This document shows, piece by piece, positions 1 through 6,824 of a stretch of 6,824 bases of DNA. The notes beneath the pieces were generated by a model. That model was not told the DNA's origin. It saw only the letters and a list, made by a program, of their open reading frames with translations, and did not search any database. The stretch comes from Candidatus Sumerlaeota bacterium. Lineage in GTDB: Bacteria > CG03 > SLGR01. The stretch covers positions 1 to 6,824 of the forward strand of contig SLGR01000233.1 in assembly GCA_007136585.1 (NCBI GenBank), written 5' to 3'. Within the stretch, counting starts at the first letter, position 1, and each line of letters begins with the position of its first letter. The position numbers and the translations under genes are program-made.

Positions 1-262
1 AGAAAGTAAGCCTTCCTTTACGTTTTCTTACGGTACCTACGATTTCCTTAGAGGCCCGCTTTACTATCCGCAGTATCCTTCCTTCCGGCTTCGGGCTCTT
101 AGGATGCGATATTATCTCAACATCCACAATATCGTTATCCATAGCGCTTCTATGGTTTTTCCTTTTTATATAAATGTCGGGTTTCACCCCGTCATCGCGT
201 ATAAGAAACCCGAACCCTGACCGGTTTCTGTCCAACTTTCCTCTTACAACTTTTTGTTTCAT
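1..262 (-). CDS. rnr: RNase R / RNase II family 3'-5' exoribonuclease, N-terminal part only
   Basis: The first 87 codons of a gene that continues past base 1. The protein begins MKQKVVRGKLDRNRSGFGF and goes on with DIYIKRKNHRSAMDNDIVDVE and PEGRILRIVKR. This is the first OB-fold (cold-shock-like) RNA-binding domain of RNase R: the GFGF turn, the D-x-Y/F-I strand, the 'AM.nD.V.V' segment and the 'EGrilrIv.R' segment that precedes the second OB fold. Family members degrade structured RNA from the 3' end in the cytoplasm; the catalytic RNB and S1 domains lie outside the window. The start is fixed because the codon directly before the ATG is an in-frame TAG (265-263). A weak Shine-Dalgarno GGGG lies at 275-272, 9 bases upstream. 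The protein opens directly with the OB fold, so it lacks the N-terminal helix-turn-helix of long RNase R forms. RNase R is preferred to RNase II from the basic, GFGF-containing OB fold, but the two cannot be fully separated on this fragment. Confidence 0.85.
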   Translation of the reverse strand, partial: MKQKVVRGKLDRNRSGFGFLIRDDGVKPDIYIKRKNHRSAMDNDIVDVEIISHPKSPKPEGRILRIVKRASKEIVGTVRKRKGRLTF

Positions 263-321
263 CTAAAAATACCCCAAAATACCTTTACAGACACCGGCGG
301 CACGGGTTTCCGGGTTTGTTG

Positions 322-334
322 CGTCATGATGACG
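322..334. repeat. 13-base perfect palindrome, possible operator or hairpin
   Basis: CGTCAT-G-ATGACG, six-base arms around a single central base. On the minus strand it lies about 60-72 bases before the rnr start. Flanking GGGTT (312-316) and AACCC (336-340) can also pair around it, with an unequal internal loop, so an extended stem-loop over 312-340 is possible. It could be a dimeric repressor site or a leader hairpin; function is not shown. Confidence 0.4.
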
Positions 335-346
335 GAACCCCTCGGA

Positions 347-361
347 GCAACCGCAGGTTGC
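347..361. repeat. 15-base inverted repeat with 3-base loop
   Basis: GCAACC-GCA-GGTTGC: perfect six-base arms around a three-base loop, 12 bases from the neighbouring palindrome at 322-334. In a transcript reading toward rnr the two would form consecutive hairpins. No T run follows on either strand, so it is not a standard terminator. Confidence 0.45.
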
Positions 362-419
362 GAGAATGAGGAAAACCGTGACGGCGGGGGCTCCCAGGAT
401 ATTTTCATATCTTTTTGTG

Positions 420-448
420 AGTATAAACCCATGGACGTTTCATCTTAA
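420..448 (-). promoter_or_regulatory. Possible sigma-70 promoter for rnr
   Basis: On the minus strand TTAAGA (448-443) is followed by a 17-base spacer and TATACT (425-420). These match the -35 and -10 consensus at 4 of 6 and 5 of 6 positions with ideal spacing. Transcription would begin near 413, giving rnr an untranslated leader of about 150 bases that includes the palindromes at 347-361 and 322-334. The match is found by eye in a short AT-rich patch and may be chance; the sigma-factor preference of this organism is unknown. Confidence 0.35.
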
Positions 449-472
449 AATTCACTTACATAATACCGGCGG
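437..472 (-). repeat. Imperfect copy of the rnr initiation region
   Basis: On the minus strand the segment 472-437 (CCGCCGGT, TGTAAG, TTTTAAGATGAAAC in order) resembles 300-256 at the rnr start (CCGCCGGT, TGTAAA, TTTTTAGATGAAAC), with the middle differing in sequence and length (36 versus 45 bases). The upstream copy carries its own ATG (443-441), which opens only 12 codons before a stop at 407-405. It may be a decayed duplication, a leader peptide, or chance similarity. Confidence 0.3.
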
Positions 473-475
473 TAT
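463..475. repeat. 13-base perfect palindrome near the end of the envelope operon
   Basis: ATACCG-G-CGGTAT, 40 bases past the stop of the TPR/HEAT gene and just upstream of the possible rnr promoter at 448-420. The position would suit a protein-binding site overlapping the upstream side of that promoter, or a weak 3'-end hairpin for the operon. There is no T run. Confidence 0.35.
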
Positions 476-514
476 GTTAACATTTTTCAGGGCAGAGTTC
501 CAACCCCGGGTTTT

Positions 515-1723
515 TCAGGTAACCCATCCCTCGCTCCTGGCCTGTTTCTTTATATCCGCAGCGGCTCTTTTAACCTCTGAGGATGAGTCTTTTTCGGCTA
601 AAAGGCCGAGGGTTTTTATGGCTGCTTTCTTTACCTGATACTCTTTATCCCCGGAAAGAGCTTTCAGAACATTCAGCGCGTCTCCGGACTTCAGGTACCC
701 GGCAAGCTCTCCGGCCCAGAGCCTTACCCAGGGATTGGGGTCAGATGCCATCCTTGAGACAAGGCCAGCGGCGCCGCTGTAATTGGACTTTTCAAGTGAC
801 CGGAAACTGCGGTATATCTCGGCCCGCTGCTCCTCTTCTTTCCGGGAGGAGGAAATTTCGGGTTCCGGGACAAACCTGGGCGGAGTTTTCTCCCGGCTGC
901 TCAGGGTCTGGGTAAGTATCCTGGAATACTCCTTTTTTATCTTCTTCTCCCTGAGAAGCTCGCTGTTCTTCCTGCTGTGTTCCTCGGCCTTTTTTTCCAT
1001 CTCGCGGGCAAGTTCCTCTTTTCTGCGGCGGCGCATCTCTTCCTCCATCCGCCTTATCTTCTCATCGGCACCCTGTGTCACCGCCTCAAGGCTGTACCTG
1101 CTGGTCTCTGAAATTTTCTTAACCCATAGACCGGTCATTACCATAAATACTATCAGTACAAACCCGGCGGCCCCCGCCACATAATAAATCCCGTATCCGG
1201 GTTCCTGCTTTTCCGATATCAATATCGGTCTCAGAAGCTCAAGTTCCCTTACCGTTATGGTCTCAGGCGGCTCTCTTATTATCTTAACCCGCTCCTCCTG
1301 GCGTTCCCTGTGTTCCCTGTGCAACCCCGAAAACACCTCCCCCGTCTCTTCCGTGTCAGGAAGTTCACCAACCTCATCCTCGGGGTGCAGTATTGAATAT
1401 AGCATTCCGTGTATCCCTGCTATATTCTCATCTTCCGGCTTTATCTCTTTCGCCTTTTCTATAAGCTCAAAAGCCTTACCGTACTCCTCTTTTTCGTAAT
1501 ACCTGCCGGCCTCAATTACCAGCACCTCGCTGTAGAGGTTTATAACCTCCCGCCTATCCGGCTCTTCGGAGTAGGCTTTCTCAAGCCGGGTAAGGGCATC
1601 TCCAAATCTGCCGTCAAGGTAATAATTAAGAGCCTCACGGTAATCCCCCCGCCCAAAAACCGGGTAAATAATGATACATACAAGTAATGCGGATACGGAT
1701 ACTATCTTTGAGCTGATATTCAT
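515..1723 (-). CDS. Inner-membrane TPR / coiled-coil / HEAT-repeat protein
   Basis: A 402-residue protein of unnamed family. Residues 1-24 form a signal peptide or first membrane anchor (hydrophobic VSALLVCIIIYPVFG). Residues 26-112 are alpha-helical TPR-like repeats (pattern ALNYYLDGRFGDALTRLEKA, then YYEKEEYGKAFELIEKAKEI). An acidic linker follows, then a clear transmembrane helix at about 178-201 ending in WVKK. Residues 214-270 are a highly charged coiled coil, and 315-395 hold HEAT-like repeats (DPNPWVRLWAGELAGYL; DKEYQVKKAAIKTLGLLA). Basic residues after the membrane helix suggest an outside TPR part and a cytoplasmic coiled coil plus HEAT part; this topology is inferred. The ATG start overlaps the TAA of the barrel gene by one base (TAATG), with AGGGAG (1740-1735) 11 bases upstream. 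TPR and HEAT units are protein-binding scaffolds, so a bridging role is likely; no catalytic motif is visible. Confidence 0.85.
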   Translation of the reverse strand: MNISSKIVSVSALLVCIIIYPVFGRGDYREALNYYLDGRFGDALTRLEKAYSEEPDRREVINLYSEVLVIEAGRYYEKEEYGKAFELIEKAKEIKPEDENIAGIHGMLYSILHPEDEVGELPDTEETGEVFSGLHREHRERQEERVKIIREPPETITVRELELLRPILISEKQEPGYGIYYVAGAAGFVLIVFMVMTGLWVKKISETSRYSLEAVTQGADEKIRRMEEEMRRRRKEELAREMEKKAEEHSRKNSELLREKKIKKEYSRILTQTLSSREKTPPRFVPEPEISSSRKEEEQRAEIYRSFRSLEKSNYSGAAGLVSRMASDPNPWVRLWAGELAGYLKSGDALNVLKALSGDKEYQVKKAAIKTLGLLAEKDSSSEVKRAAADIKKQARSEGWVT

Positions 1724-3219
1724 TATTCGGAAAGCTCCCTTAATCGTCTTACCCGCCGCAGAAGAGAAAGCGCGTGACTGTTATCGGGGCTTATCTCAAG
1801 CAGTCTTTCAAGGATTCCTTCGGCTTTAGAGTATTCGCCTTCAAGTACGCTGTGCCTTGCCTCGGCAAGGTGCCTTATTATTACTGCCTGGGTGTACTGG
1901 GGGTGGTCCCTCCCGGCCCTTGAAGCCTCACGGGCCGCTCTGGCGTACTCTCCGCTCTCATAGGCAGCCATCATCCTTCCGAAAGAAAATTCCTTACGGA
2001 GGTCCTCCTGTATCATACCGAGAAGATCTCTTGCGTCGGGACTGTCGGGGTTATCCCTGAGTATCCTCCGCAAGGCGGATTCCGCCCGGTCGTATTCTCC
2101 CCTGTTTATATCAAGGGCGGCCTCTATAAGAGCCTCAAGCTCCCTGTTCTTTCTCCTGGCTTCTTCAAGCTCGCTGTCCAGTTCCCTTCTTTGCCGGTCA
2201 AACCGGCTTAAGAAATCCCGCTGCCTCTCATCTTTCCAATCCTCAAAGACCTCTTCCCTCCGCCGGAGCAGCCTCTCCCTTCTTTCAAGCTCCTTCTCAA
2301 GGGCTGTCGGAAGGTAACCGAAACTTACCGCCACTCCGGCGCTGTGAAAGAACCCCATTCCCGAATACCGCAGCGTATATGAGTAAGAAAACCTATCCGT
2401 TACCAGCCCTATCCCGCAGCTGACTCCCTTGTAACTTGCGCCTGCCCGGATACGCAACATATCCAGTACCACGTACTCGGCTCCGGTATGCCAGCGCATC
2501 AAGGTATAATCCCCGGCCGCGTCAATTAATTCAATATCCGCCGCCCCGAGAAGAGCGCGGTTTAAGAAATACCCTGATATCCCTGCCCGTATATTCAGAG
2601 GGAACCTCTCCGTATCGCGGTAAAGTTTCAACCCGGGTGAGATAATATTCTGTATTCTGAACCCGGCCGAGACGTCATCCGAAACGCTGTAAATCACCCC
2701 GGCATCGGCCCCCCACGCCGAACCCCCGAAACCGGCTATCTGTTTATTTATGAACTTAAGGTTTATCCCGGCGCCCAGGTTTTCCGCCAGGGAGCGGCTC
2801 AGGTTGAGCAGCAACACCCTCTCCTCTTCTCGGAAACTCCCTTCCGCTCCTCCCCAGATATTCCTTCTCTCCGCCTCTCCGGAAGTAAGAGTGATCAGCC
2901 CTATACCCGCGGAGGAGCCCAGTATTAGAGGGTAGGAATAAAATACCGAAGCATAGCTCCCCCTCATCGGAAGCGGCGTATAAAAAACCGAGATACTCTG
3001 ATGCCCCGTAAAAGAAGTGGAAGCAGGGTTATAGTATAACCCTGCCGCCTCCCGGGAAAGGGATGCGTAAGCGTCCCCCATTGCCAGGGCCTTTGGAGAA
3101 GCGGTAAAGGAGGAAAGCCTCTCCCCGGGAACCCCTCCCGCCTCCGGAGAGTTGTAAAACCCGCCGGCAGGGCGAAAAGAGAAACATATTATCAGAAGCA
3201 GTTCAGTCAGTCGCCTCAA
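1723..3219 (-). CDS. PorV/PorQ-type (UPF0164-like) outer-membrane barrel with C-terminal coiled coil and TPR repeats
   Basis: A 498-residue protein in three parts. Residues 1-20 are a Sec signal peptide (RRLTELLLIICFSFRPAGG). Residues 30-303 are an outer-membrane beta barrel of the PorV/PorQ kind: the hallmark 'ASPKALAMGDAYASLSREA' then 'LYYNPAS' near residues 40-67, followed by alternating aromatic and glycine-rich strands. Residues 306-365 form a charged coiled coil, and 366-490 hold TPR-like repeats (GEYDRAESALRRILRDNPDS; GEYSKAEGILERLLEISPDN). Family barrels end at about residue 300, so the tail of nearly 200 residues is an addition, probably periplasmic. The start is TTG: an in-frame TAA lies only four codons upstream (3231-3229), AAGG at 3230-3227 is well spaced, and the signal peptide begins at once. 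It overlaps the receiver gene by 17 bases and the next gene by 1. PorV is the outer-membrane shuttle of type IX secretion; whether this relative has that role is unproven. Confidence 0.85.
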   Translation of the reverse strand: MRRLTELLLIICFSFRPAGGFYNSPEAGGVPGERLSSFTASPKALAMGDAYASLSREAAGLYYNPASTSFTGHQSISVFYTPLPMRGSYASVFYSYPLILGSSAGIGLITLTSGEAERRNIWGGAEGSFREEERVLLLNLSRSLAENLGAGINLKFINKQIAGFGGSAWGADAGVIYSVSDDVSAGFRIQNIISPGLKLYRDTERFPLNIRAGISGYFLNRALLGAADIELIDAAGDYTLMRWHTGAEYVVLDMLRIRAGASYKGVSCGIGLVTDRFSYSYTLRYSGMGFFHSAGVAVSFGYLPTALEKELERRERLLRRREEVFEDWKDERQRDFLSRFDRQRRELDSELEEARRKNRELEALIEAALDINRGEYDRAESALRRILRDNPDSPDARDLLGMIQEDLRKEFSFGRMMAAYESGEYARAAREASRAGRDHPQYTQAVIIRHLAEARHSVLEGEYSKAEGILERLLEISPDNSHALSLLRRVRRLRELSE

Positions 3220-3577
3220 GGGTCCGCCTTATCTCCCTGCGCAGAACCTTCAGGGTAAAAGGTTTCTCAAGGAACCCCGCCACCCTGTCTTCACCGTCCG
3301 AAGAGAAAAGCCCTCTCACGTTAGGGCGTCCGGTTATTATTATGACCGGTATATCCTTAAGCGCCTTATCACTTTTCATACTCCGGTTAAGCTCCGCCCC
3401 GTTCATTCGGGGCATCATAACGTCAATAAGGGCAAGAGCCGGCGGGTCCCGCCTCATAAGATCCAACGCTGATTTCCCGTCCTCCGCGCTTACTATCTCG
3501 TAACCCTCCAGCCCCTCGCTTAGAACTTCCACAACATCCGGATCGTCTTCTGCGATAAATATTTTTTTTCTGTTCAT
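3203..3577 (-). CDS. Stand-alone CheY-like response-regulator receiver
   Basis: A 124-residue protein that is one receiver domain and nothing else. The acidic pocket is at E10-D11-D12 (IAEDDPD), the phospho-acceptor aspartate at D52 (LALIDVMMPRMNG), the switch threonine at T82 (VIIITG) and the conserved lysine at K105 (FLEKPF). All catalytic residues are intact, so it should accept phosphate from a histidine kinase and act in the cytoplasm through protein contacts. There is no DNA-binding or enzymatic output domain and no kinase gene in the window. The ATG overlaps the stop of the surface-protein gene as ATGA, with AGGAG at 3589-3585 seven bases upstream. Its tail overlaps the start of the barrel gene by 17 bases. 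A run of eight A residues lies in codons 3-6 (3569-3562). The partner cannot be named; the neighbouring TPR/HEAT protein is one candidate. Confidence 0.93.
   Translation of the reverse strand: MNRKKIFIAEDDPDVVEVLSEGLEGYEIVSAEDGKSALDLMRRDPPALALIDVMMPRMNGAELNRSMKSDKALKDIPVIIITGRPNVRGLFSSDGEDRVAGFLEKPFTLKVLRREIRRTLEATD
3227..3230 (-). promoter_or_regulatory. Ribosome binding site for the TTG start of the barrel gene
   Basis: AAGG sits seven bases before the TTG at 3219-3217, inside the 3' end of the receiver gene. It partly overlaps the in-frame TAA (3231-3229) that rules out any longer protein, and so settles the unusual start codon. Confidence 0.65.
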
Positions 3578-6500
3578 CTTACAACTCCTATAAGAAACTC
3601 TTCCTTCCTGCTACCCCGCCTTGATAGAACCGCGTAGTACATACCCGAGGCCACGGGCATCCCCCGGGAGTTAAGACCGTCCCAGGTAAAGACCGCGGTA
3701 GAACCCTGCGGAGAACCCTCAAACTCTTTCTCCATACTCCTGACAAGCTCTCCTGTCTGAGTATATATATCAAGCGTAAGCTCCATCCTCTCAGTAAGGG
3801 CAAACCTTATCACCGCTTCCTGGTCTCCGGGATGAAAGGGGTTGGGATAAACGATTATCCCGGAGAGCTTTTTATCAAGCGGATTCAGGGGGCGTATCGC
3901 GTATATCCCCGGGGAGTCTATCATAGCGCCGACCCTTGGAATTGAACTTACGGAAAAACTCTCCCTGGGTTTCCATATCCCCACATCTTCCGAAAGGCTG
4001 AAGACCGAAAGGAACCTGGCGTCAATATCCATACCCCGGACAAACCCTCCGCTGTCGGTCTCGTATTCAAACTCCAGTTCCACGGGTCTCAGAAACTCGC
4101 TGATCTCATTCTTTTCGTAATCATAGGCTGAGACGGAGACAGCCCTGACAGTCTCTCCGCCGGTAAGAGGGTCGGATACACCCGCCCGGTCCGCAGTGGA
4201 GGTATCTTTATCCGGTTCTCCGAGTTTCAGGAGCGCCGGGGAGGAAAAGGTATTCCTGTATACCCGCGCAGAAGCCGCGCCCGGCATCTCCAGAGAAGTC
4301 TCGGAATCTTCCTCAAGAAGCCGGGCAAAACTGAAAACCCTCTCACCCAGCAGGGGATGCCCCACCGAATCAACTATCCCTGTAGAGAGCCTTACAGTAT
4401 ATACCCGCGACGCCTCCAGTGGAGAACCCTCCTGTGGTATAAGGTTCAAGGCCCCTTCCTTATCATCATAGCTTACGCGGTACCTGGCGTAACCGCCGTA
4501 GTTATCGGTCAGAGTTATGTGGTTTGCAAGTATCACGTAAGGATCGGGGGCCTTGTTTAATTTTATCTGAATCGTCTCGGTCCCTGTCATCACCTTCCAG
4601 TCTCCGTCCCGGGGAAAAGTCCCGACGACCCTTATGGGGTTCAGATTAACGGCAAACCTCTGACTCTCACGGCTTTCCCGAAGAATCATCTCCCGGTCCG
4701 ATGCCACTACCCGCCAGTAGTAGAGGGTCTCGTCCTCAAGCTCAAGTTCGTGCGAGGTGCCTTTAAGCCCGGGGTACTCCGTGTACGGGACAAAATCCGG
4801 GTTTTCGGATATCTGAAGAGAATACTCAACCTCTCCGCCGTCCGGATCCGGGGCCTCTTCCCAGGTAAAGATTACCCGAGTGCTGTAGATAAACTGACCT
4901 TCAATCGGGGAAATGAGACTGAACTCCTCGGGAGGCTCCCTTGTATTTGATATGCTGAACCGCCCGGAAGTGTCGCTCCCCGTAAGTCCGCCGCTGTCAA
5001 CCGCTGTGACCTTGACTATCGTATCTTCCGAGTCCGGAAAATTTCCCGTCCCCCATTCATAGGGAATATTCCACTCCGGAACATAGTTCTCCAGAACAGT
5101 GAAACTCCTTCCCCCGTCGGTGGAGACTGAGATTATAAAATAGACCGTATCTGTTTTATTAGGATCGGACCATTCCCAGTCTATGCTCTGTACGCCGCTA
5201 AAGGATTCGCCGCCTCGGGGTGAGTTAAGGCTGACCTCGGGGGGCTCGTTATGGTTTGATATCCTGACCGGCCCGAAATACGATTCGGTTTCAAGCCCGC
5301 GCTGGTCCCTTGCCGTGAACCTCACAAGATACCCGGGGGCGTTCCGTACATACCTCGTATCCCATTCATACTCCGGTTCTTTTATACCCGTTGCGGCCGT
5401 TATACTGTAAGGCATACCCTCCCCCTCAGACAGGTGTATATCAACCTCGTGGTAATCCTCCGGGTCCGGGTCGGTCACCTCCCATATGAAACTTATAAAG
5501 GAAGAACCCGTATCCGTTGCCGATCCCCACTCGTTTGGAAGTTCCGACAGAATCTCTATTTCAGGCGGGGAATTGGTCCGGCAGGCCGACGGCTCAGGCA
5601 GCTCGCTCAGGTTACCGGCCTCGTCCTGAATCCGGACCGCGAACCAGTAGGTGACGGCATCTTTGAGCCCTGTTACCGTAAAACTCTCCTCCTCTCCCTT
5701 AATAAAACCTTCCGGATGGAAAACAGCTTCATTGGATTCGGAGATATCCCAGCGTGTCTCGTTGTCAACCGGCCAGGTTTCAGACCACCTGATACGGTAT
5801 AAAACCCCCTCGTCCGGGACCGTCCAGCTCAGCCTTACCGCCCCGCTTAAGTACCCCGGCCGCTCGGACTCAAAAGTTCCGATCCCCTCCGGGGGAACCG
5901 TATCTATATATATAGACCATATATCGGAATACTCCCCGTATTCTAAACCGTCAAAGGCCCTTACTCTCCAGTAATAAGGGCCCCCGTGATCCAGGGTCAA
6001 CCGGGTATAACTTGGCGAGACGGTCTCTTTGACCCCGCTCGTGGAAGCCAGAATACTCTCAAACCCCTTATCGGATGCGACCTCCAGCTCGTAGGTGAGA
6101 GTATCCGAGTCCCCGTCCGGGGCGTTATACCAGGCAAGCCGGGCGGGGCGCGCATTTGTCAGACCCCCGTCTTCGGCCGAGGAGTAGGGGGGGCCGGCCG
6201 GGGACGGGGGACCCGGAACGTGGTTGTATGTAATTGAAGCAGATACAAGAGTAAACGGGTCCTCAGATCCGGGTTTATCTGATTCAAGGAAAAACCTGTA
6301 CCGAAAATAACGGTTATTATTAAGGGTCTCGGAGACCGGGCCTGGTTCAGTATAATACGTATATGGCGATCCGCCTGGTCCGGTAAACCCGGCGGGGTCC
6401 TGGTCCCCGGAAGCGGCTATCTGGAACCGGACCGACCCTCCCCCCCCGGAGGTCTCAAAATCAATACTCTCGTAAATCAGTTTGGTCTCAACGGGGCCGG

Positions 6501-6824
6501 CGTCAAAAACCCCGGATGTATAGAATCCGGATGTTGAGATATCAAACCTCCAGGTATCCCCCATAAATTCCTCGTCCTTCTCAGAGGCCTTACGGCGGCC
6601 GCCGAAGAATATACCCTCTCCCAGTCCGGAGTGATAAGATGCTGCCGAACTTGTCCTTTCCTCCGGCTCCCCGCCGGGCATACGGGGATAACTGCGGTGC
6701 CAATTGTAATCGTGAAACACCCAGAAATCCCCCAGGTACTTTCCTCCTGCGTCCTCGCCGCCGAATAAGACCGCGGCGCGGGCTCCCGGGTCGTAATATA
6801 CCGCGGCTCCGGCTCTTCCGGGAG
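3574..6824 (-). CDS. Large modular surface/secreted protein: Kelch, Fn3/Ig-like and FlgD-like C-terminal domain (5' end outside window)
   Basis: At least 1082 residues, with the N-terminus beyond base 6824. Counting from the first visible residue (codon 6822-6820): two Kelch beta-propeller blades (6-36, AAVYYDPGARAAVLFGG then LGDFWVF; 56-94, IFFGG then MGDTWRFD); an unnamed beta-rich module (about 95-205); Fn3- or Ig-like modules at about 205-308, 309-418, 420-524, 525-630 and 631-728, with repeated 'YYWRV.A.D' and 'DPDG/DPDP' signatures; an SbsA-type Ig-like module (about 729-835, VVGTFPRDGDWKV to GERVFSF); a less clear region (836-980); and a FlgD/type-IX-like C-terminal domain (985-1082, IIVYPNPFHPGDQEAVIRF, FTWDGLNSRGMPVASGMYYA). 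The GTG at 6720 is not the start: the frame stays open upstream and completes the first Kelch blade. The protein is probably exported and exposed on the surface, perhaps an adhesin. It ends in an ATGA overlap with the receiver gene. Confidence 0.88.
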   Translation of the reverse strand, partial: PGRAGAAVYYDPGARAAVLFGGEDAGGKYLGDFWVFHDYNWHRSYPRMPGGEPEERTSSAASYHSGLGEGIFFGGRRKASEKDEEFMGDTWRFDISTSGFYTSGVFDAGPVETKLIYESIDFETSGGGGSVRFQIAASGDQDPAGFTGPGGSPYTYYTEPGPVSETLNNNRYFRYRFFLESDKPGSEDPFTLVSASITYNHVPGPPSPAGPPYSSAEDGGLTNARPARLAWYNAPDGDSDTLTYELEVASDKGFESILASTSGVKETVSPSYTRLTLDHGGPYYWRVRAFDGLEYGEYSDIWSIYIDTVPPEGIGTFESERPGYLSGAVRLSWTVPDEGVLYRIRWSETWPVDNETRWDISESNEAVFHPEGFIKGEEESFTVTGLKDAVTYWFAVRIQDEAGNLSELPEPSACRTNSPPEIEILSELPNEWGSATDTGSSFISFIWEVTDPDPEDYHEVDIHLSEGEGMPYSITAATGIKEPEYEWDTRYVRNAPGYLVRFTARDQRGLETESYFGPVRISNHNEPPEVSLNSPRGGESFSGVQSIDWEWSDPNKTDTVYFIISVSTDGGRSFTVLENYVPEWNIPYEWGTGNFPDSEDTIVKVTAVDSGGLTGSDTSGRFSISNTREPPEEFSLISPIEGQFIYSTRVIFTWEEAPDPDGGEVEYSLQISENPDFVPYTEYPGLKGTSHELELEDETLYYWRVVASDREMILRESRESQRFAVNLNPIRVVGTFPRDGDWKVMTGTETIQIKLNKAPDPYVILANHITLTDNYGGYARYRVSYDDKEGALNLIPQEGSPLEASRVYTVRLSTGIVDSVGHPLLGERVFSFARLLEEDSETSLEMPGAASARVYRNTFSSPALLKLGEPDKDTSTADRAGVSDPLTGGETVRAVSVSAYDYEKNEISEFLRPVELEFEYETDSGGFVRGMDIDARFLSVFSLSEDVGIWKPRESFSVSSIPRVGAMIDSPGIYAIRPLNPLDKKLSGIIVYPNPFHPGDQEAVIRFALTERMELTLDIYTQTGELVRSMEKEFEGSPQGSTAVFTWDGLNSRGMPVASGMYYAVLSRRGSRKEEFLIGVVR
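3585..3589 (-). promoter_or_regulatory. Ribosome binding site for the receiver gene
   Basis: AGGAG, seven bases before the ATG at 3577 and inside the last codons of the surface-protein gene. This is the strongest Shine-Dalgarno match in the window and supports coupled translation across the ATGA overlap. Confidence 0.7.

Follow-up and report, generated by a model that had tools for sequence, protein, structure and literature searches.

Papers on the type IX secretion system (T9SS) describe it as specific to Bacteroidota. The cytoplasmic portion of PorL is a binding target of the T9SS response regulator PorX (PMC5005315), and in F. johnsoniae the PorX homologue contacts GldL by way of its CheY-like domain (PMC10951265). 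In the same species, type B cargo has a dedicated SprF-like shuttle, and operons are mentioned that include a PorE-like gene as a third member (PMC12618676). The operon reported here is read, with moderate confidence, as a cargo-shuttle cassette of T9SS type that is connected to a phosphorelay. A preliminary description had proposed a dedicated export or sensing line for the surface protein, which is a fair reading of the locus.

The stretch of DNA analysed (the window, 6,824 nucleotides) contains the final part of an operon, encoded on the minus strand, of a draft genome (G000; 1.9 Mb, 257 contigs, 88% complete). Four minus-strand open reading frames overlap by 4, 17 and 1 bases, and the junctions read ATGA, a TTG within the end of the receiver gene, and TAATG. 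The four genes with these overlaps and with the domains first assigned to them were confirmed by open reading frame calls, junction sequences and a domain search. The features of the window are the following:

3574..6822, minus strand: KELCH, secreted Kelch/Fn3/Ig protein, C-terminal 1082 of 1340 amino acids, open 5' end
3577..3870, minus strand: sorting-type C-terminal domain of KELCH (FlgD_ig / T9SS type A-like), from domain models
3203..3577, minus strand: REC, stand-alone receiver, 124 amino acids, with acidic pair, Asp53, Thr82 and Lys105
1723..3219, minus strand: PORV, outer-membrane barrel of the PorV family, with a periplasmic helix and a tail of TPR units, 498 amino acids, TTG start
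2314..3003, minus strand: 14-strand barrel of PORV (model residues 73-302), from the structure model
1729..2304, minus strand: 68-residue helix (306-373) and TPR helices (376-497) of PORV, from domains and model
515..1723, minus strand: HEAT, inner-membrane protein, 402 amino acids, with signal peptide, TPR, one transmembrane helix, coiled coil and HEAT repeats
1388..1648, minus strand: TPR region of the HEAT protein (residues 26-112), predicted periplasmic from domains and topology
1124..1180, minus strand: transmembrane helix of the HEAT protein (residues 182-200), with a basic stretch after it, from topology prediction
533..844, minus strand: HEAT repeats (residues 294-397), predicted cytoplasmic from domains and topology

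The KELCH gene is truncated by the contig end. The last 121 bases of the window are identical to the first 121 of another contig (C213, locus L009), and when the two are joined the full length of 1340 amino acids is obtained, the N-terminal part with its signal-peptide start being encoded at 3-893 of L009. Upstream on the same contig stand an overlapping gene for an HTH-receiver (200 amino acids) and genes for a receiver-kinase (357 amino acids) and a hybrid PAS/GAF kinase. While the four genes do overlap as described, the true unit is larger and extends upstream to about 6-8 genes including kinases. Downstream of the HEAT gene, past an intergenic repeat, lies an RNase R-like gene (2-262), which was rejected as a member of the unit as it is not kept in G006, where HEAT precedes other genes. 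The intergenic element itself (251-460, about 190 bp) recurs in the genome in more than 30 copies that have diverged (67-88% identity) and in places stand nearly in tandem; in the window it ends where the RNase R-like gene has its start codon. An Rfam search of window positions 150-620, which cover the element, yielded nothing above threshold.

KELCH contains Kelch, fn3, Big_5 and FlgD_ig domains. Its tail had been called FlgD-like, and the match to FlgD_ig is real and above the cut-off of that model; with the T9SS type A sorting model TIGR04183 the domain scores 18.4 bits (E 0.0016), below the cut-off of 23. From the 14 C-terminal domains encoded upstream of PorV genes in G000, however, 13 match TIGR04183 (E 0.01 or better), as compared to 11 for CHU_C and 10 for FlgD_ig, and the KELCH end is best read as a T9SS sorting domain. 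A flagellar FlgD was rejected for this terminus, as FlhA is lacking in the phylum and the tails of this kind, taken together, fit sorting-domain models.

PORV reaches 93.2 bits with the NCBIfam model of the PorV/PorQ family (PorV_fam, cut-off 90) and has a TPR domain in addition. In an AlphaFold model of PORV, calculated from three sequences and of modest confidence (pLDDT 66), a barrel of 14 strands is accompanied by a helix of 68 residues and by TPR helices. The two PDB chains that match this model best, 6h3i_F and 8gl6_F, belong to T9SS translocon structures, and we take them to be PorV. These results agree with the PorV-type barrel with a TPR tail that had been recognised at the outset. 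Besides the window pair, 13 PorV paralogues inspected in G000 are located directly downstream of a sorting-domain gene, which suggests that each cargo may have one dedicated shuttle. Coevolution of cargo and shuttle within a genome was not retained as a finding: the distances of sorting domains and PorV proteins within G000 are not significantly correlated (r 0.21, p 0.11), and the p of 0.0003 obtained with a larger set is confounded by shared lineages.

Another T9SS part is encoded elsewhere in the genome:

Contig C230 of G000, locus L103, 10801-15984: divergent SprA, 1727 amino acids, with orthologues at L104-L107

The orthologues of about 1690-1730 amino acids share 45-52% identity across the order and have comF-, lysS- and lolC/D-like genes as neighbours. 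A profile made from five of them matches the SprA of 6h3i at 2e-15. The Pfam model SprA_N gives 20.7 bits in G000, below its cut-off of 27, and scores above the cut-off in relatives. Both the SprA outer-membrane translocon and the PorV-family shuttle of a T9SS are present. A PorU-type C25 peptidase was found in none of eight genomes of this order, which are drafts; in a different family of the phylum, five genomes have one each. The GldM model matched in no genome, controls included. The earlier statement that no named system has this set of components holds only in part, since barrel and tail are recognisable as T9SS parts, PorV and sorting domain.

For comparison, 16 genomes of the phylum were available, all of them metagenome drafts, with assemblies that carry the name "Elusimicrobia"; three of the loci come from Elusimicrobia bacterium CSSed10_282R1, T1Sed10_83R1 and GH52. 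As the phylum assigned here has only 16 genomes, it is possibly a lineage apart from classical Elusimicrobiota. A full-length KELCH relative was detected in 10 of the 16 genomes, at 27-51% identity; a four-row Kelch alignment was suitable for scanning, and a single-sequence search of the genome contigs with PORV found no relatives. G000, G001, G006, G008, G009, G011, G012 and G014 all show the order KELCH-REC-PORV-HEAT, with the HEAT gene running past the contig end in G001 and G011 and the Kelch gene split between two contigs in G014. The receivers of the G008, G009, G012 and G014 loci were found by reading all frames. In G005 and G013 the order is broken by contig ends, and the genes left stand in the expected order. 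No full-length Kelch gene was found in any other setting among the 16 genomes. A receiver-kinase gene lies upstream in all eight readable loci (G000, G005, G006, G008, G011, G012, G013, G014). One locus, L150, has the same 4- and 17-base overlaps and the same TTG start of PORV as the window, with an overlap of 14 bases instead of 1 between PORV and HEAT. Because the four-gene order recurs in other genera and families, and the overlaps and the TTG start recur in L150, a chance association is excluded. The comparison across relatives suggested in the preliminary description thus shows an order that is intact wherever contigs allow, down to about 27% identity, and the scattering which had been named as evidence against a joint system was not observed. 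Cargo, shuttle and TPR partner genes are adjacent and conserved, as is expected of a cargo, its shuttle and an envelope anchor.

The HEAT protein has a signal peptide, a TPR part, one transmembrane helix at 182-200 with a basic stretch, a coiled coil and HEAT repeats, and this arrangement predicts a periplasmic TPR part and a cytoplasmic HEAT part. Because of this predicted topology both TPR parts, the one on the C-terminal arm of the barrel and the one between signal peptide and transmembrane helix, would share one compartment. A location of the two in different compartments had been considered as an argument against a joint function; both are predicted to be periplasmic. A fold search with the model of the HEAT protein gave generic TPR matches only. 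Outside the phylum, proteins with the layout signal peptide-TPR-TM-coiled coil-HEAT were seen in 2 of 129 genomes (L186 in G082; L187 and L188 in G130), their genes not adjoining the PorV genes found in those genomes. As such genes exist in two genomes of other phyla, the TPR/TM/HEAT family is wider than the operon.

REC is a complete receiver which consists of the receiver domain only and keeps the residues listed above. A receiver gene directly precedes a HEAT gene also in G003, G004 and G013. The receivers at these positions group with the operon receivers in one clade (95/95), which includes one more receiver, encoded at a second Kelch/PorV locus, and excludes those of the kinases and HTH proteins. 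In view of the contacts of PorX with PorL and GldL, and of the clade shared by operon and pre-HEAT receivers, REC probably acts on the HEAT domain in an analogous way.

Of the 16 genomes of the phylum, 12 encode FliG_C proteins, and FlhA was found in 0 of 16. Most of these proteins have an N-terminal hydrophobic segment, a periplasmic part, a transmembrane helix near 190 and cytoplasmic FliG_M/FliG_C, and the torque-helix region of FliG can be recognised in them, most clearly in type I of the two types of clusters in which the genes adjoin PorV, MotA and MotB genes. Type I clusters, which are located in genomes without FlhA (L108 in G000, L179 in G001, L055 in G003, L056 in G004, L180 in G006, L181 in G013, L182 in G012, L054 in G009), encode a PorV of about 530 amino acids, a TM/FliG_M/FliG_C/TPR protein of 630-740 amino acids, a proline-rich protein of 1150-1300 amino acids, MotA and MotB. 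Type II clusters (L142 on contig C28 of G003, L167, L169, L176, L177, L178, L185) contain a sorting-domain gene, PorV-TPR, a membrane-anchored FliG-like protein of 460 amino acids, MotA and one or two MotB, and in L142 the cluster continues into REC-HEAT. These clusters suggest a possible non-flagellar motor tied to PorV-held proteins; a literature search for such a FliG/MotAB motor found no paper.

If the operon is a cargo-shuttle cassette under the control of a phosphorelay, the signal peptide would take KELCH across the inner membrane, and at the outer membrane KELCH would pass through the divergent SprA channel. Its own PorV-family barrel would receive it by the C-terminal sorting domain, and KELCH would remain bound to the barrel at the surface. 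The periplasmic helix/TPR arm of PORV may meet the periplasmic TPR of the HEAT protein, and REC, phosphorylated by the kinases of the operon, would bind on the HEAT side and in this way gate or tune the export or the placement of KELCH, while the HTH-receiver would set expression. We favour control from inside to out, and next to it outside-in sensing; the sequence by itself is compatible with both. For sensing, KELCH would have to be a surface receptor from which a ligand signal passes via the arm of PORV to the TPR/TM/HEAT protein and so into the cytoplasm, where HEAT would change the state of the receiver and the kinases, with the HTH-receiver altering transcription. The parts and their conserved order are the same for this reading, the operon does have kinases and an HTH-receiver, and a large Kelch/Fn3 protein is suited for binding. 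However, the two kinases of the window genome carry PAS, GAF and receiver domains that do not evidently connect them to HEAT, the known role of PorV proteins is that of a shuttle rather than a signal transducer, and a stand-alone receiver is normally an output carrier, which makes this direction rather unlikely.

An even less probable explanation is a plain co-regulated operon, in which kinases and HTH-receiver control the expression of an adhesin and its shuttle, and REC and HEAT have separate roles, the envelope not being bridged by any physical connection. For regulation, the HTH-receiver of the operon would be enough, and single TPR/TM/HEAT genes exist outside the phylum as well. On the other hand REC and HEAT stay beside PORV across families, REC-HEAT pairs with receivers of the same clade recur elsewhere, and a TPR arm on the barrel together with a periplasmic TPR on the HEAT protein would then be a coincidence. 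The HEAT protein might also be the adaptor of a non-flagellar motor of MotA/MotB-FliG type with REC as a CheY-like switch, so that the cassette moves the surface protein or drives its export. L142, with a sorting-domain gene, PorV-TPR, FliG-like, MotA, MotB, MotB, REC and HEAT in a row, points in this direction, as do the FliG/MotAB clusters adjoining PorV genes across the phylum without FlhA and the layout common to FliG-like and HEAT proteins (N-terminal segment, periplasmic part, transmembrane helix near 190, cytoplasmic helical domain). Yet in no relative does a motor gene adjoin the operon of the window, the likeness of FliG and HEAT is limited to layout, and the motor function is putative; we regard such a clutch as very unlikely here. 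For the phylum as a whole it is a speculative and improbable extension that its T9SS-like export or surface-movement machine might run on non-flagellar MotA/MotB and an inner-membrane-anchored FliG-like protein, with REC-HEAT as the CheY-like switch linking an individual PorV-held surface protein to signalling.

A different PorV cassette was observed in four loci (L045 in G008, L046 in G014, L047 in G010, L043 in G009). It consists of genes for a sorting-domain protein, PorV, a cyclic-nucleotide-binding protein and a long TPR protein, followed by apparent ExbB/ExbD/TonB genes, and the cyclic-nucleotide and TPR parts are fused in G009.

SprA, many PorV paralogues and sorting-domain cargos thus occur phylum-wide outside Bacteroidota, in contrast to the description of the system as restricted to that group. 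Through the kinases, the receiver and the membrane-spanning TPR/HEAT protein of one cargo operon, cytoplasmic signalling could be linked to a single surface protein, a route that is open to testing. The question is also raised what powers a system in which GldM was not found, FliG/MotAB genes stand beside PorV genes and FlhA is absent.

With the T9SS of Bacteroidota the locus and its genome share a PorV-fold barrel, a sorting-type C-terminal domain and an SprA homologue. They differ by having no GldM match and, in this order, no C25 peptidase found, by the many PorV paralogues each beside a cargo gene, and by the TPR tail of PORV. The likeness to PorX/PorY is a CheY-like receiver that would act on a membrane component of the export machine. 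A PorX-type response regulator combines a CheY-like with an alkaline-phosphatase-like (PglZ) domain, whereas REC has no PglZ domain, stands alone, and is encoded in the cargo operon beside a HEAT protein rather than PorL/GldL. Like the F. johnsoniae operons of type B cargo, SprF-like and PorE-like genes (PMC12618676), the present one unites a cargo and a dedicated shuttle with a third protein of the envelope that bears TPR units; here, however, the shuttle is a PorV instead of a member of the PorP/SprF family, a receiver and kinases are part of the operon, and the third protein is predicted to span the inner membrane and to end in cytoplasmic HEAT repeats.
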